DNA from: a virus
Direction: 5' to 3' (one strand)
Length of the DNA stretch: 21,511 nucleotides
Virus record (IMG/VR): IMGVR_UViG_3300042923_001009
Coordinates: 1-21,511 of that record
Positions within the stretch are counted from its first letter, which is position 1; each line of letters begins with the position of its first letter. The notes below the pieces were generated by a model. It was given only the letters and a program-made list of their open reading frames with translations, was not told where the DNA came from and did not search any database. The translations under genes and the position numbers were made by a program. Shown here piece after piece: positions 8,518 through 21,009 of this stretch.

Positions 8518-8738
8518 GCTGTCCTTCTCCCCTGAGCGATGGTGCTCATTCGTTCCACGGCCCGCGCCTGCAGCCGTGCGGTCTGTCGGTACTCGGTACG
8601 GATCAGGCGCGCCTCCTCCACCGTGTTCACCAGGAACCCGGCGTTGCGGAGGTCGTAGATCGCCTTCCTCTCGGCGTTGTCGAGGCGGTCGAGGATCCCG
8701 TCGAGGTTCGCCATCCGGACCCGCTCAGAACGGTTCAT
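8514..8738 (-). CDS. Small helical protein of unknown function
   Basis: 74 residues, MNRSERVRMANLDGILDRLD, followed by NAERKAIYDLRNAGFLVNTV and a long basic helix to the end (TEYRQTARLQARAVERMSTI). The start at 8738 has CAGGGGAC before it but overlaps the upstream gene by 14 bases; an ATG at 8714 would avoid the overlap but lacks a ribosome site. Probably all-helical, with a basic face. No family recognised. Confidence 0.6.
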   Translation of the reverse strand: MNRSERVRMANLDGILDRLDNAERKAIYDLRNAGFLVNTVEEARLIRTEYRQTARLQARAVERMSTIAQGRRTA

Positions 8739-9846: not shown

Positions 9847-9873
9847 CCGGGCGCGCGTCTTCGTCGATGAACG

Positions 9874-10149
9874 TCATCGCGCTACTCCTGCCTTCTCGTC
9901 GGCGCGCACACCAGCACGCCAGTCCAGGTGCGGCTGCGATACCTTCGAGCAGAGCCCGAACCGGTCGAGCTTCAGCGACCGCTGCCCGCACAGGGCGCAC
10001 GTCGGGAGGTGCGCTTGGTTCGCGTCGATCTCGGCGAGGGCGGCCGTGACGCGTGCGCGGGCCGCGTCGTCGTACTCCCACTCCTTCTCCGGCTCGTCCG
10101 GGACCACGATCACCTCGGCGAACTCCGCGTTCGGCATCCCGAGACGCAC
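9874..10149 (-). CDS. 3' part of a probably frameshifted early gene, CxxC-containing
   Basis: The frame gives MRLGMPNAEFAEVIVVPDEP, then helices (ARVTAALAEIDANQ) and a zinc motif (LPTCALCGQRSLKLDRFGLC). The formal start is a GTG at 10149 or an ATG at 10137, but the same frame upstream of it has no start codon and yet reads like protein (HAGKLASKAPHFTTEGEAET), back to a TGA at 10236-10234. The natural start is most likely the ATG at 10259 in a different frame (MTFAIRWREDASGFVG), coupled to the HNH stop. A -1 shift near 10215 would join the two. The product would be about 125 residues. Function unknown. Confidence 0.6.
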   Translation of the reverse strand: MRLGMPNAEFAEVIVVPDEPEKEWEYDDAARARVTAALAEIDANQAHLPTCALCGQRSLKLDRFGLCSKVSQPHLDWRAGVRADEKAGVAR

Positions 10150-16875: not shown

Positions 16876-17085
16876 CTACGCGTCTGGGAGTCGCGCACCT
16901 GGGGAGGGTGGTGTGCCCCCGGCGGTGGTCTCGTACGCGGACAGTGCCGCGAGCAGGAGGATCGCCAGGCCGAGGCCGGCGAGCAGGAGGAAGAGGCCGT
17001 CGATGGTCCAGTCGCGGGCGACCGCCTGACCGATGCCGGCGAAGATCAGCGCGAGGCCGATCAGGATGCCGAGCCCGCGGATCAC
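16876..17085 (-). CDS. Small two-helix membrane protein
   Basis: 69 residues from a GTG at 17085, MIRGLGILIGLALIFAGIGQ. Two hydrophobic segments (about 3-22 and 30-49) are separated by a short charged loop (ARDWTIDG), with a soluble Gly/Pro tail. The strong ribosome site GGAGGTGG is six bases upstream, and the start overlaps the antirepressor stop (GTGA). Function unknown; early placement argues against a late holin role, but that cannot be ruled out. Confidence 0.6.
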   Translation of the reverse strand: MIRGLGILIGLALIFAGIGQAVARDWTIDGLFLLLAGLGLAILLLAALSAYETTAGGTPPSPGARLPDA

Positions 17086-17930
17086 GACGCCACCTCCGTG
17101 ATGACGCCGAGGCGGACGCGGAGACGCTCGAGGCCGCGCGCGGTCACCCGGACCTGCGGCGCCGTCGGCACGAGGTCGCCGTCGCTGTTCAGGCGGGGCG
17201 GCATCGCACGCTCGGTGAGGTACCCGGCGTCCAAGGCGGACGCGTACGGCCGCCACCGCTTGCCTTCACCGCGGTACGTCCACCGGATCTCGCCGAGCGT
17301 CTCGAAGAGACGCTGCGGACCGGTGTCCACGCCGGCACGCTTCAGGATCGACGCGGCATCCGCGACGGCATAGTCACCGGCGGCGTCAGCGAGCTCATCC
17401 CACGCCTCAGCGCGGGGCGTCAGCTCGGCGATCTGCACATCGCGCCGCGCGATGATGCCCTGCGCCGCGGTCAGCGCGCGCGCCACCAGCTGCTCGGGGG
17501 TCTCCGGCGCGGTGTACGAGCCGGTGCGGCGGATGCTCGGCAGCACCTCGTGCGTCACCCACCTCTTGAACTCGCGGGCGCCGTCGACACGGGCCCGCAT
17601 GATCGCCGAGTACAGGCCGGGCTCGCTCAGCACGACGACCTCCTGCGGGCCGCCAAGGGTGTGCAGAACTCGCACCCCCTTCTCGTCATCGTCGAGGCTC
17701 CGCGTCATCGCGGACGTCGCGGAGTAACCGAGTACCGCGGCGACGTCGACAGCGACGAACCACGCCTCTCCGTCGACCAGCCCGGCGCGGACTCCGTGGC
17801 CCGCGAACTCGAACCGCTCGGCGTCCGTGACGACCTCGTCGCGTCCGAGACCGAACGACTCGGCGACACGGTCGTACGCGTGGTGCTGCGTCGCGGGGAT
17901 GCCGACCTCGAACGGGGCCCGGGCGTTCAC
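17082..17930 (-). CDS. Phage antirepressor (BRO-N plus KilAC-type C-terminus)
   Basis: 282 residues. BRO-N domain at about 38-135: FEFAGHGVRAGLVDGEAWFV, AVDVAAVLGYSATSAMTRSL, VLHTLGGPQEVVVLSEPGLY, REFKRWVTHEVLPSIRRTGS. A helical linker (QLVARALTAAQGIIARRDVQ) leads to a KilAC-like DNA-binding region (about 165-275) with AVADAASILKRAGVDTGPQR, LFETLGEIRWTYRGEGKRWR and VRVTARGLERLRV. Such proteins counter phage repressors and favour lytic growth. GTG start at 17930 with GGGAGC six bases upstream overlaps the HTH gene stop. It is the third gene from the leftward promoter, so it should be expressed once repression lifts. Confidence 0.9.
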   Translation of the reverse strand: MNARAPFEVGIPATQHHAYDRVAESFGLGRDEVVTDAERFEFAGHGVRAGLVDGEAWFVAVDVAAVLGYSATSAMTRSLDDDEKGVRVLHTLGGPQEVVVLSEPGLYSAIMRARVDGAREFKRWVTHEVLPSIRRTGSYTAPETPEQLVARALTAAQGIIARRDVQIAELTPRAEAWDELADAAGDYAVADAASILKRAGVDTGPQRLFETLGEIRWTYRGEGKRWRPYASALDAGYLTERAMPPRLNSDGDLVPTAPQVRVTARGLERLRVRLGVITEVAS

Positions 17931-18154
17931 GACTGCTCCCGCGTGCCGACGCGGCTCGCCGCGACCCATGCATCGATGTCGTCGGCGCGGTAGATCACCG
18001 TGCGCGCGGTCGGCTTCTGGTACGCGGGGCCGACGCCGCGGTCGCGGAGATCCGCGAGCCGCACCTTCGTCATGCCCGGCACGCGCTCGCACACCTGCTC
18101 GGGCGACAGCCAGACCGGCGCCTCTGTTCGCGGGCGCAGCGCGGTGACGGCCAT
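17927..18154 (-). CDS. xis: Excisionase-like helix-turn-helix protein
   Basis: 75 residues. WLSPEQVCERVPGMTKVRLA (15-34), then LRDRGVGPAYQKPTARTVIY and RADDIDAWVAASRVGTR, is the winged helix of the excisionase/AlpA/MerR-like family (LT..EVAE.L.....TL..LR..G.GP.Y.K....V.Y...D...W). It may direct integrase to excision or act as a small regulator. It overlaps its neighbours by 1 and 4 bases. An excisionase role is inferred from fold and place, since small HTH proteins of this type also work as plain transcription factors. Confidence 0.75.
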   Translation of the reverse strand: MAVTALRPRTEAPVWLSPEQVCERVPGMTKVRLADLRDRGVGPAYQKPTARTVIYRADDIDAWVAASRVGTREQS

Positions 18155-18387
18155 CAGCGGACCCGCCCGGTCTCGCGCGGCAGCAGGTCACGCACTCGAC
18201 GCTTCGTCACACCCGCGAGGAGACGCAGCTCGCGGGTCGTGAAGGACGTGATGCCCTTCAGCTTGCGGTCGAGCGACGCGTACGGGATCCCGGATGCCTT
18301 CGCCCCACCCTGCACCGATCCGAAGGCCTCGATGATCGCCGCCTTGGCGATCTGACCAGTCGCCCGGTCGTACTCTGCGTGATCCAT
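18154..18387 (-). CDS. Cro-like HTH protein, first gene of the leftward early operon
   Basis: 77 residues, MDHAEYDRATGQIAKAAIIE. The helix-turn-helix lies in FGSVQGGAKASGIPYASLDR and KLKGITSFTTRELRLLAGVT, similar to small XRE-type regulators with G.....A...GI....L.R.L.G....T..EL. It is divergent from the repressor gene, the standard place for a Cro-like lytic regulator. I chose the ATG at 18387 over the GTG at 18396 because a promoter -10 ends seven bases before it and no ribosome site exists, pointing to a leaderless message. An operator-like palindrome covers this start. Confidence 0.75.
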   Translation of the reverse strand: MDHAEYDRATGQIAKAAIIEAFGSVQGGAKASGIPYASLDRKLKGITSFTTRELRLLAGVTKRRVRDLLPRETGRVR

Positions 18388-18396
18388 ACGGAGCAC
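18379..18396. promoter_or_regulatory. Operator-like palindrome O1
   Basis: GTGATCCATACGGAGCAC is a near-perfect 18-bp palindrome (mismatches at the fourth and eighth pairs). It covers the start codon of the leftward HTH gene. It shares the GTGATCC...GGA pattern with the sites at 18404 and 18517, and starts exactly 25 bases from the former. Confidence 0.65.
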
Positions 18397-18423
18397 GCTA
18401 GCCGTGATCCGAACGGATTACAA
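18387..18423 (-). promoter_or_regulatory. Leftward early promoter (leaderless)
   Basis: On the minus strand TTGTAA (18423-18418), a 17-base spacer and TAGCGT (18400-18395) form a plausible sigma-70-type promoter. Seven bases separate the -10 from the ATG at 18387, so transcription should begin at or next to the start codon. O2 lies in its spacer and O1 over its start. Confidence 0.6.
18404..18421. promoter_or_regulatory. Operator-like palindrome O2
   Basis: GTGATCCGAACGGATTAC, 18 bp, is symmetric except for one pair and the central AA. It fills the spacer and part of the -35 of the leftward promoter, so a bound repressor would block RNA polymerase there. Confidence 0.7.
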
Positions 18424-18512
18424 GCGTGAAGTATCAGAAACTTGAAACGCCCCTCTTCGGCGCACCGAAAACGGGTTGTATCAGAATCCGCGGGCAATGC
18501 TCTTCCAGCGAG

Positions 18513-18526
18513 TACAGTGATCCGAA
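18513..18526 (+). promoter_or_regulatory. Repressor promoter -10 (leaderless)
   Basis: TACAGT (18513-18518) is seven bases before the ATG at 18526; no ribosome site precedes that ATG, so the message is probably leaderless. No good -35 is visible at 16-18 bases, so the promoter may be weak or activated. Confidence 0.5.
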
Positions 18527-18534
18527 TGGAGCAG
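18517..18534. promoter_or_regulatory. Operator-like site O3
   Basis: GTGATCCGAATGGAGCAG shares the left half-site and spacing of O1 and O2 with a weaker right half. It overlaps the end of the repressor -10 box and the repressor start codon, which fits autoregulation. Confidence 0.6.
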
Positions 18535-18765
18535 GGAATGGACGACTACACCCTCGCCGTAGCCGCAATCCTCAAAAAGGCACAGCAGCAGGACGGTCAG
18601 CCGAGCTACACCCAGATCGCGGAGCGAACATCGCTGTCGCGCCCGACGGTCGAACGAATGCTGAACGGCCGGCGCGACATCAACCTCCGCTACCTCAGAG
18701 AGCTGTGCGAGGTACTCGGGCTCGATATCGCCGAGGTCGTCGACGAGGCCGAAGAGAATATCTGA
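18526..18765 (+). CDS. Small HTH immunity repressor (CI-like)
   Basis: 79 residues, MEQGMDDYTLAVAAILKKAQ. The XRE-type helix-turn-helix covers about 22-72: PSYTQIAERTSLSRPTVERM, then LNGRRDINLRYLRELCEVLG and LDIAEVVDEAEENI. The ORF is a bare HTH domain without the usual oligomerisation or peptidase part, so it is short for a CI repressor. It diverges from the Cro-like gene and is flanked by operator-like sites, the position expected of the maintenance repressor. An ATG at 18538 with GGAG six bases before it could give a 75-residue form from a longer message. Confidence 0.8.
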   Translation: MEQGMDDYTLAVAAILKKAQQQDGQPSYTQIAERTSLSRPTVERMLNGRRDINLRYLRELCEVLGLDIAEVVDEAEENI

Positions 18766-18914
18766 CGGAGGATCGCTCCGAGCGTCGTGCCCTGCTCAAT
18801 CGCGATCGCTCGCGCTTCGGAAACGCTCGGACAGTTGAATGCCCGGCGGAGGAACGGGCAATCGCGTTCGCAGTTGGCACCGGTGCCGCACAGCGGCTGG
18901 ACGTCGTCGGTCAT
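18690..18914 (-). CDS. Possible small cysteine-rich protein, antisense to the repressor 3' end
   Basis: 74 residues, MTDDVQPLCGTGANCERDCP, then FLRRAFNCPSVSEARAIAIE and a Ser/Thr-rich tail. The first ~50 residues have four well-spaced cysteines and plausible composition; the last ~25 are antisense to the repressor and look like shadow sequence. No clear ribosome site. It may be a short gene with a run-on end or simply chance. Confidence 0.3.
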   Translation of the reverse strand: MTDDVQPLCGTGANCERDCPFLRRAFNCPSVSEARAIAIEQGTTLGAILRQIFSSASSTTSAISSPSTSHSSLR

Positions 18915-19136: not shown

Positions 19137-19307
19137 CTAGCGATCAGGTGGTGGCATCGACCCGCCACGGCCGCGAGACCGTTGGCCCTCGACGTACTCG
19201 CGCAGCATGCGTTCGATCACATCTTCGAGACGCTCACCATTCGCCGCGGCCTTCGCCTCGCCAAGTCTCGCGAGCTCGCTGTCCACTCTGACCTCGGGAT
19301 CGGTCAT
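19137..19307 (-). CDS. Ribbon-helix-helix DNA-binding protein
   Basis: 56 residues, MTDPEVRVDSELARLGEAKA, then ANGERLEDVIERMLREYVEG and a basic/proline tail. A beta strand (VRVD) and two helices split by NGE match the Arc/MetJ fold of small repressors and antitoxins. A TACCAT -10-like box ends seven bases before the ATG at 19307 and no ribosome site is seen, again suggesting a leaderless message. It diverges from another ribbon-helix-helix gene 59 bases away; no toxin-like partner is seen downstream. Confidence 0.6.
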   Translation of the reverse strand: MTDPEVRVDSELARLGEAKAAANGERLEDVIERMLREYVEGQRSRGRGGSMPPPDR

Positions 19308-19366
19308 GGGCGGGATGGTACCAGCAGAGCAATACACCCCACCAGAGCAGGTGTCAGCATTGGCTC

Positions 19367-19822
19367 GTGCCGAACCAGCCCAAGACTCGACCGCGGACCT
19401 TCCGCATCCCAGATGACCCCTACTTTCCTGCCCAGGAGAAGGCTCGCGCCGAGGGGACGAACCTCACCGCGCTCGTCAACGAGTGGGTACTCGAGTACGT
19501 CTACGGCGACGACGACGAGCGTCAGGACGGATTGACACGCCCCGCATCGTCAAGATACCTTGACGACATGACGCACCCTGACACCGCCTTCCAGCACATC
19601 CGCGAAGCCGCCGGATCACTTCGGACCGACGACATGGACGCCAGCAACGAGGCCATCCTCCGCTCGTACGCGGAGCTGCGGCGCGTGTTCGACGACGACC
19701 TCGCCGAGCAGGTGCGCGCGGCACGCTCTATGGGCTGCTCGTGGGAGCGCATCGGCGCCGCGCTCGGCATCACGAAGCAGGCAGCGCACGAACGCTACGC
19801 GCGGATAACAGAGCCGGCCTGA
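19367..19822 (+). CDS. Ribbon-helix-helix protein fused in frame to an HTH regulator
   Basis: 151 residues from a GTG. Residues 10-47 (TFRIPDDPYFPAQEKARAEG, TNLTALVNEWVLEYVYGDDD) form a ribbon-helix-helix domain. Residues 68-151 form a helical protein ending with AEQVRAARSMGCSWERIGAA then LGITKQAAHERY, a sigma-region-4-like HTH common in actinobacterial regulators. The two halves meet at RQDGLTRPASSRYLDD, whose DNA contains a complete promoter and operator for the second half. So this could be one fused protein, or a small gene that lost its stop and runs into the next. The stop overlaps the integrase start (TGATG). Confidence 0.55.
   Translation: MPNQPKTRPRTFRIPDDPYFPAQEKARAEGTNLTALVNEWVLEYVYGDDDERQDGLTRPASSRYLDDMTHPDTAFQHIREAAGSLRTDDMDASNEAILRSYAELRRVFDDDLAEQVRAARSMGCSWERIGAALGITKQAAHERYARITEPA
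19532..19567 (+). promoter_or_regulatory. Internal promoter with palindromic operator
   Basis: TTGACA (19532-19537) matches the -35 consensus exactly; 18 bases later TACCTT (19556-19561) serves as -10, and six bases after it is the ATG at 19568. The site TCGTCAAGATACCTTGACGA (19547-19566) has perfect 8-bp arms around ATAC and covers the -10, so a bound dimer would shut the promoter. It probably drives the HTH gene and integrase. Confidence 0.7.
19568..19822 (+). CDS. HTH regulator as a separate leaderless product
   Basis: 84 residues, MTHPDTAFQHIREAAGSLRT, same frame as the longer fusion. Helices (NEAILRSYAELRRVFDDDLA) lead to the HTH (SMGCSWERIGAALGITKQAA). The promoter directly upstream places the transcript start at this ATG, and the palindrome over its -10 suggests self-regulation. 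This may be the main product of the frame. The gene shares a base with the integrase start, so it may set integrase level. Confidence 0.55.
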   Translation: MTHPDTAFQHIREAAGSLRTDDMDASNEAILRSYAELRRVFDDDLAEQVRAARSMGCSWERIGAALGITKQAAHERYARITEPA

Positions 19823-21009
19823 TGGCGGGGAGCATCACCGCGTACGCGACCGCCGATGGGCGACGGTACCGCGTCCGCTACCGCAAGCCCGACAAGTCGC
19901 AGACCGACAAGCGCGGATTCAGGACGAAGCGCGACGCCGAACTGTTCCTCGCATCCATCACCGTCAGCAAAGCCACCGGCGACTACGTCGACCCGGCCGC
20001 CGGGCGCGTCACGATCGCGCACCTCGGCCCGCTCTGGCTCGAGAAGAAGTCGACGCTGAAGCCCTCGTCGTACCGGCCGCTCGAGATCGCGTGGCGCGTC
20101 TACGTCCTGCCGAAGTGGGGCGCGTACCCGGTATCAGCGATCGACGCCGCCGACGTCGAGGCGTGGATCTCGCAGCTCATCAAAGGCACCGCGCCGCGCG
20201 AGCGTCAGCGCGGGAACGCGAAGCGCGTGCCCGCCGCCGAGCCGCTCGGCGCGACGAGCGTGCTACGCGCCGTCGGCGTGCTCGCCGGCATCCTCGACGA
20301 CGCCGTCCGCGCCGGGCGCATCAAGAAGAACCCCGCGCGCGGCACCGACAACCTGCCCCGCAAGCAGACGAAGAAGGCGCGCCGCTACCTCACCGACGAC
20401 GAGGTGATGCGCCTCGCCGAAGCGATTGGCGACCCCGTCCGGTCCACCCTCGTGCTCACGCTCGCGTACACCGGCGTGCGGTGGAGCGAAGCCATCGGCC
20501 TCCGCGTCCGCGACGTGAACCCGCTTCGCCGCCGACTGCAGGTGCGGCGGCCTCTCGTCGAGCTCGACGGCATCTTCCACGAGGGTGAGCCGAAGAGCTG
20601 GGAGCGACGGTCGGTTCCGTACCCCGCGTTCCTCGTCCCGGCGATCGCGCAGCTGTGCGAGGGGCTCGGCATGGACGGCCACGTCTTCGTCGACGAGAAC
20701 GGCCACAGCATCCGGCAGCCGCACGTCGAGTCCAGCTGGTTCCTCGCCGGTCTCCGCGACGCCGGCATCGAGCGGCTCACCCCGCACGACCTCCGCCACA
20801 CCGCGGCCAGCCTCGCGATCAGCAGCGGCGCGAACGTGCTCGTCGTGCAGCAGATGCTCGGCCACAAGTCCGCCGCGATGACCCTCGACGTCTACGCCGA
20901 TCTGTTCCCCGACGACCTCGAAGCGGTCGCCGAACGCCTCGATGCACGAGCGACCGCCGCCGCAGATGTGGGCAAAATGTGGGCACGCGTCGGCATCCGC
21001 ACCGCCTGA
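19822..21009 (+). CDS. int: Tyrosine-family phage integrase
   Basis: 395 residues. The N-terminal arm-binding domain (SITAYATADGRRYRVRYRKP) precedes a core-binding SAM-like domain (about 62-170). The catalytic domain shows R220 (LAYTGVRWSEAIGL), K258 (GEPKSWERRSVP), H322 and R325 (PHDLRHTAASLAI), H348 (MLGHKSAAMT) and nucleophile Y358 (DVYADLF). All catalytic residues are present, so it should be active. Start ATG at 19822 overlaps the HTH stop. The last codons (DVGKMWARVG) encode one of the two repeats taken as arm-type binding sites, as in many actinobacterial integrases that use tRNA targets. Confidence 0.96.
   Translation: MAGSITAYATADGRRYRVRYRKPDKSQTDKRGFRTKRDAELFLASITVSKATGDYVDPAAGRVTIAHLGPLWLEKKSTLKPSSYRPLEIAWRVYVLPKWGAYPVSAIDAADVEAWISQLIKGTAPRERQRGNAKRVPAAEPLGATSVLRAVGVLAGILDDAVRAGRIKKNPARGTDNLPRKQTKKARRYLTDDEVMRLAEAIGDPVRSTLVLTLAYTGVRWSEAIGLRVRDVNPLRRRLQVRRPLVELDGIFHEGEPKSWERRSVPYPAFLVPAIAQLCEGLGMDGHVFVDENGHSIRQPHVESSWFLAGLRDAGIERLTPHDLRHTAASLAISSGANVLVVQQMLGHKSAAMTLDVYADLFPDDLEAVAERLDARATAAADVGKMWARVGIRTA
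20967..20986 (+). repeat. Integrase arm-site repeat, copy A
   Basis: TGTGGGCAAAATGTGGGCAC, within the end of the integrase gene. It contains two GTGGGCA units. Copy B at 21176-21195 differs at one base and has the same orientation. Confidence 0.65.

Follow-up and report, generated by a model that had tools for sequence, protein, structure and literature searches.

The window, as we call the whole stretch of DNA analysed here (a virus record of 21,511 bp), has a terminase region similar to those of actinobacterial phages, and contains two divergent genes for small HTH proteins, designated rep and cro, with three related 18-bp sites, O1, O2 and O3, at and between their start codons (Table 1). 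The rep gene lies on the integrase side, about 1 kb from the integrase start with small genes between, whereas cro runs leftward at the head of the lytic operon and is followed by genes for an excisionase-like protein (xis) and an antirepressor (ant). Three contigs of the IMG/VR collection, L018, L019 and L020, carry homologous switches, and the window and these three are referred to below as the four switches.

Table 1. Coordinates of genes, putative operators, predicted promoter elements and repeated elements (positions in the window unless a contig is named).
Feature	Position	Strand	Remarks
Antirepressor	17082..17930	-	Bro-N and KilAC domains; Pfam PF02498, PF03374; PHROG 130
Excisionase-like HTH_17 protein	17927..18154	-	Next gene after cro; PHROG 66; Pfam HTH_17 below cut-off
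cro-like gene	18154..18387	-	77-aa HTH protein; ATG in O1; PHROG 4583
O1, 18-bp dyad operator	18379..18396		GTGATCCATACGGAGCAC; equivalent site in L018, L019, L020
Predicted cro promoter	18394..18422	-	-35 TTGTAA, 17-bp spacer, -10 TAGCGT; predicted start at ATG
O2, 18-bp dyad operator	18404..18421		GTGATCCGAACGGATTAC; kept in four of four switches
Upstream copy of TGTATCAG element	18430..18437	+	AGTATCAG; conserved in L019, L020
Downstream TGTATCAG element	18477..18484	+	Centre 45.5 bp upstream of predicted rep start
Predicted rep -10 box	18513..18518	+	TACAGT, 7 nt before ATG; TA(C/A)AGT kept in four switches
O3, 18-bp dyad operator	18517..18534		GTGATCCGAATGGAGCAG; kept in four of four switches
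rep (immunity repressor)	18526..18765	+	79-aa HTH-only protein; ATG in O3; Pfam HTH_31/HTH_3, PHROG 4583
Tyrosine integrase	19819..21009	+	Pfam PF00589; PHROG 1
TGTATCAG direct repeat pair, L019	9966-10028		Between O2 and O3
TGTATCAG direct repeat pair, L020	3358-3425		Between O2 and O3

The initial annotation of this DNA had described the repressor as a bare HTH protein of about 79 residues, and this is borne out both by the conservation of its start codon, Met1 being present in all four Rep sequences, and by a confident AlphaFold2 model of five helices (pLDDT 90.3) in which the HTH_3/HTH_31 domain is accompanied by little else. The Cro-like protein has no Pfam match and is likewise modelled with five helices (pLDDT 88.9); its start is the ATG at 18387 and not the GTG at 18396, and the former is kept in L018 and L020. 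In L019 the cro frame appears broken, at about 9857-9910, between the operator-embedded ATG and the HTH part. Both proteins match the profile of PHROG 4583, a family of transcriptional repressors (Rep, E 6e-9; Cro, E 2e-8, in a search run from the upstream GTG 18396), as do Rep and Cro of L018 and L020, and as such the two are probably paralogues that read a common site with differing preferences. The exposed residues of their recognition helices do differ (SRPTVER in Rep, PYASLDR in Cro).

The models of Rep and Cro are XRE folds which resemble the N-terminal domain of lambda CI, ClgR and the controller proteins of restriction-modification (R-M) systems. When the Rep profile was compared with the PDB, the only credible sequence matches were to C.BclI and C.AhdI; matches to TAL effectors were rejected as repeat artefacts, as no stretch passes alone. 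With 79 residues in five helices, Rep has no counterpart of the C-terminal oligomerisation and cleavage domain of the lambda CI family, and it is lambda-like by the layout of its locus rather than a CI homologue over its length.

The three 18-bp sequences are found where the initial annotation had placed them, and the starts of O1 and O2 are indeed 25 bp apart. Its layout of GTGATCC and GGA holds as a shared core, but the gap between the two is four bases and not three; written as GTGATCC-N4-GGA, the pattern has exactly three matches in the 21.5-kb window. With up to one mismatch permitted there are seven, against 2.38 +/- 1.43 in shuffled sequence, and none of 100 shuffles reached seven. The dyad symmetry of the sites had gone unmentioned: O1, O2 and O3 are inverted repeats, near-perfect dyads with the consensus GTnATCCRnnYGGATnAC, such that the reverse complement of each is also motif-like. 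It follows that the shared orientation previously attributed to them is without meaning; functionally, O1 and O3 point in opposite directions. A pattern-free search for the best symmetric 18-bp triple in 18370-18545 returned exactly O1, O2 and O3, with a score of 61; 40 dinucleotide shuffles gave 42.4 +/- 1.6, the highest being 47.

A weight matrix derived from the four switches scores O1, O2 and O3 at 27.6, 27.1 and 22.4, respectively, and finds no further comparable operator site in the 21.5-kb window. The next best, a lone operator-like site at 8589-8606 (score 16.2), is distant from the switch and probably due to chance. The window thus holds only three comparable sites, all of them dyads at the switch, and not the dispersed asymmetric sites of the Cluster A stoperator systems (L5 type). 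O3 is the weakest of the three by this matrix, although the ranking is less clear in L018, where O3 is a perfect dyad.

The overlaps of the sites with start codons and promoters had been assigned correctly, O1 to the Cro-like start codon, O2 to the leftward promoter and O3 to the -10 box and start codon of the repressor, and comparison of the four switches renders the geometry considerably more exact. The cro and rep start codons (the latter a GTG in L018) occupy operator positions 10-12 in eight of eight cases, and before each start lies a -10 box of the form TAnnGT, which stands 7 nt ahead of the codon and whose last two bases double as the first two operator bases. On its minus strand, O1 is joined in this way to the cro -10 box and contains the cro ATG, and O3 likewise extends into the rep -10 box and includes the rep ATG. 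The start-to-start distance of O1 and O2 is nearly constant (25, 25, 26 and 25 bp), whereas that of O2 and O3 varies (113, 43, 133 and 136 bp). The cro promoter elements TTGTnA and TAnCGT are kept in all four switches, and because the -35 hexamer overlaps the edge of O2, O2 fills the promoter spacer while O1 covers the -10 box, the start site and the start codon. No recognisable -35 accompanies the rep -10 box. A generic sigma-70 scan reported neither promoter, and the case for both therefore rests on their conservation. Judging by the spacing, the predicted transcription start of both cro and rep is the start codon itself, which would make both messages leaderless, with starts inside O1 and O3, a feature that the initial annotation did not contain. 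The lambda cI mRNA is leaderless. In Yersinia phage PY54 and the immB region of N15, mapping of the cI and cro mRNAs placed their 5' ends at the AUG, with no leader (PMC4488713).

The annotation had also named its own test beforehand, namely that the motif should recur beside homologous repressors in related phages. We scanned IMG/VR (2.9 million contigs) with a degenerate pattern of two adjacent sites separated by 0-25 bases, using DNA only and no protein information, and only L018, L019 and L020 matched. In each of these three loci the motif stands beside homologues of Rep (49%, 72% and 71% identity, respectively) and of Cro (40%, 61% and 64%), a third site covers the rep start, and the geometry is the same. 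When IMG/VR was scanned with another pattern, confined to the cro start site, the matches were again L018, L019 and L020 only. The motif accompanies only fairly close homologues of Rep and Cro, at three loci, and two of the three derive from metagenome data sets whose numbers are adjacent. Single-protein searches of IMG/VR with Rep and with Cro gave no homologue, and a single-protein search in genome contigs gave one unrelated alphaproteobacterial stretch only. A looser rep-side pattern brought ten extra contigs, which we rejected as chance: none has Rep or Cro homologues, and most of the frames are unrelated or broken. A distantly similar repressor occurs in Anatole, a phage of P. freudenreichii (41% identity to L018 Rep), the genome of which (L028) has at 2492-2509 an operator-like sequence, CTTATCCACATGGATGAC, covering the start of the gene annotated as immunity repressor; neither matching partners for this site nor a significant triple were found there, 5 of 40 shuffles being equally good. 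The same search gave no significant symmetric triple in an M. abscessus prophage.

Given the sites, their symmetry, geometry and conservation, and their co-occurrence with both proteins, we would put at about 0.9 the probability that this region comprises the operators of a lysis-lysogeny switch of lambda type in a temperate phage of actinobacteria, at which small HTH Rep and Cro proteins would compete for O1 and O2 (governing cro) and O3 (governing rep). As in other switches of this type, the HTH genes diverge, with the repressor on the integrase side and Cro heading the lytic operon, and several copies of one dyad operator lie between them and overlap both promoters. Dimers of Rep would bind the 18-bp dyads. 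In the lysogen, occupation of O2, between the -35 and -10 elements, and of O1, from the -10 box over the start codon, would occlude the leftward cro-xis-ant promoter and keep the lytic genes off. O3 covers the rep -10 box, transcription start and start codon, and rep would be silenced when Cro occupies this site in lytic growth or when Rep itself does so at high concentration, the latter suggested by O3 being the weakest match. The assignment of proteins to sites, the order of affinities, dimerisation and the leaderless starts are all part of what we infer here. If so, this is a very small lysogeny switch, made up of about 160 bp of DNA and two HTH-only proteins, 77 and 79 residues long. With the start codons inside operators, the constraints on promoter, operator and coding sequence fall together. 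The comparison of four switches predicts the exact base pairs to mutate, and the system is well suited to asking how switching can be sharp when the repressor has no oligomerisation domain.

Other readings of the array must be weighed against this one. That the sites are repeats arisen by chance in a phage genome rich in GC has nothing in its favour beyond their small number; the shuffles speak against it, and the independent recovery of three homologous switches by DNA pattern alone refutes it. It is also very improbable that the likeness of O1 and O3 merely reflects a conserved -10 box joined to the N-terminal coding sequence (M-D/E-x) of paralogous genes, with no protein bound; each does overlap a -10 box and first codons, and the rep start region of Anatole is similar while showing no clear partner sites, but O2 is non-coding and nonetheless has the same sequence and symmetry, and neither promoters nor coding explain dyads. 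A division of the array, with Rep acting mainly on O1 and O2 and Cro only on O3, such that the two do not compete for all three, is a tentative proposition for which there is precedent in Staphylococcus phage Phi11, where CI occupies O1 and O2 of three homologous operators and Cro only O3 (PMC3991615). The differing recognition helices noted above speak for such a division, yet the three sites have one consensus across four switches and the two proteins belong to the same PHROG family.

A further alternative concerns how rep is driven. That Rep, besides repressing cro, activates its own promoter from upstream, as lambda CI does from OR2, is suggested by L018, where the centre of O2 falls at -43.5 relative to the predicted rep start, a position like that of OR2, and by the lack of a visible -35 in the rep promoter. 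In the window, L019 and L020, however, O2 lies at -113.5 to -136.5 and the position at -45.5 is taken by TGTATCAG, an element unlike the operator, and we regard self-activation as unlikely. In each of these three loci the centre of the downstream TGTATCAG copy lies at -45.5 relative to the predicted rep start, with the upstream copy at variable distance, and L018 has no TGTATCAG elements, its O2 being found at -43.5 instead. TGTATCAG is the sole 8-mer common to the O2-O3 interiors of the three, and the 7-mer GTATCAG occurs twice in each interior, an outcome reproduced by none of 1000 shuffle sets; this evidence spans only three loci, which are mutually related. Since the rep promoter has no visible -35, the downstream TGTATCAG is a plausible candidate for an activator site, and the TGTATCAG layout and that of L018 suggest alternative ways to drive rep. 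It is possible, if doubtful, that a separate regulator, a third input to the switch, binds the paired TGTATCAG and activates the rep promoter from -45, with the HTH-only Rep and Cro serving purely as repressors; such a regulator would take the part that CII, or CI bound at OR2, plays in lambda, and the system lends itself to asking whether TGTATCAG supplies the missing activation. The elements were absent from the initial annotation, and the conserved pair with its downstream copy at -45.5 is what is new here.

The layout and logic of the switch are otherwise already known from the switches of BPs, Phi11, PY54 and C.Esp1396I, although we found no paper among the open-licence literature describing this operator family. 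Mycobacteriophage BPs, also an actinobacterial phage, has int, rep and a divergent cro-like gene, and one of its operators sits in the cro promoter, between -35 and -10, while another overlaps the rep transcription start; its operators, however, consist of two 12-bp half sites and are joined by further ones spread over the genome, whereas here all sites lie at the switch, and its Rep is a tetrameric protein of 103 aa with attP inside the gene (PMC4557955). Lambda CI and Cro at OR likewise have divergent genes with three dyad operators between; CI has the C-terminal domain that the HTH-only Rep lacks, and the sites described here form a pair and a single site at variable distance, with start codons inside operators. 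In Phi11, cI and cro diverge around three homologous operators, with O1 near cro and O3 near cI, but its sites are 15 bp, its CI is larger and its host is unrelated (PMC3991615). In PY54, Cro binds a single operator, and the proteins and sites differ from ours (PMC4488713). The R-M controllers C.AhdI, C.BclI and C.Esp1396I are HTH-only homodimers of similar size, C.Esp1396I binding three operators of which two are adjacent and cooperative, and leaderless C transcripts are common; the controllers act on restriction-modification genes and have no Cro partner, but their example shows that HTH-only proteins of the size of Rep can dimerise and act on paired operators. In phages of P. freudenreichii, repressor, cro and antirepressor genes are annotated in this order with no description of operators (PMC5831693).

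Between rep and the integrase, the ORFs of the window encode a ribbon-helix-helix protein (19137-19337, minus strand), an Arc-like protein with a second HTH (19367-19822, plus strand) and a small Cys-rich protein, and none is a metalloprotease of the kind that marks ImmR/ImmA-type switches; HELxH-type ORFs do occur in this interval in relatives such as L007 and L010, but not in the window. Counterparts of the ribbon-helix-helix and Arc-like/HTH proteins are present in L019 and L020 and were not seen in L018, and thus co-occur with TGTATCAG. Along with the Cys-rich protein, they would be the first candidates for a factor that binds this element. The Cys-rich protein (CGTGAxCExxC...CP; window 18690-18914, minus strand) has no convincing match in Pfam, PHROGs or NCBIfam; its gene is convergent with rep, with overlapping 3' ends, and homologues of 42-43% identity sit in the same place in L019 (10265-10486, minus) and L020 (2927-3181, plus).

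A search with the integrase gave 13 contigs, all with xis and seven or eight of them with ant, among which the gene order ant-xis-cro / rep-int recurs and the excisionase-like counterparts are 51-59% identical. The rep/cro regions of these integrase relatives differ in sequence, and symmetric three-site arrays of their own are often present (L010, L005, L015, L009, L017), while in L012, L014 and L011 the array scores are barely above shuffles. The architecture is thus more widespread than this one operator sequence, which is what one would expect of heteroimmune phages, and the arrays of the relatives, with TGCATGrAnnTyCATGCA in L010, L005 and L015 and CTATGCCATATGGCATAG in L009, look like further immunity specificities.
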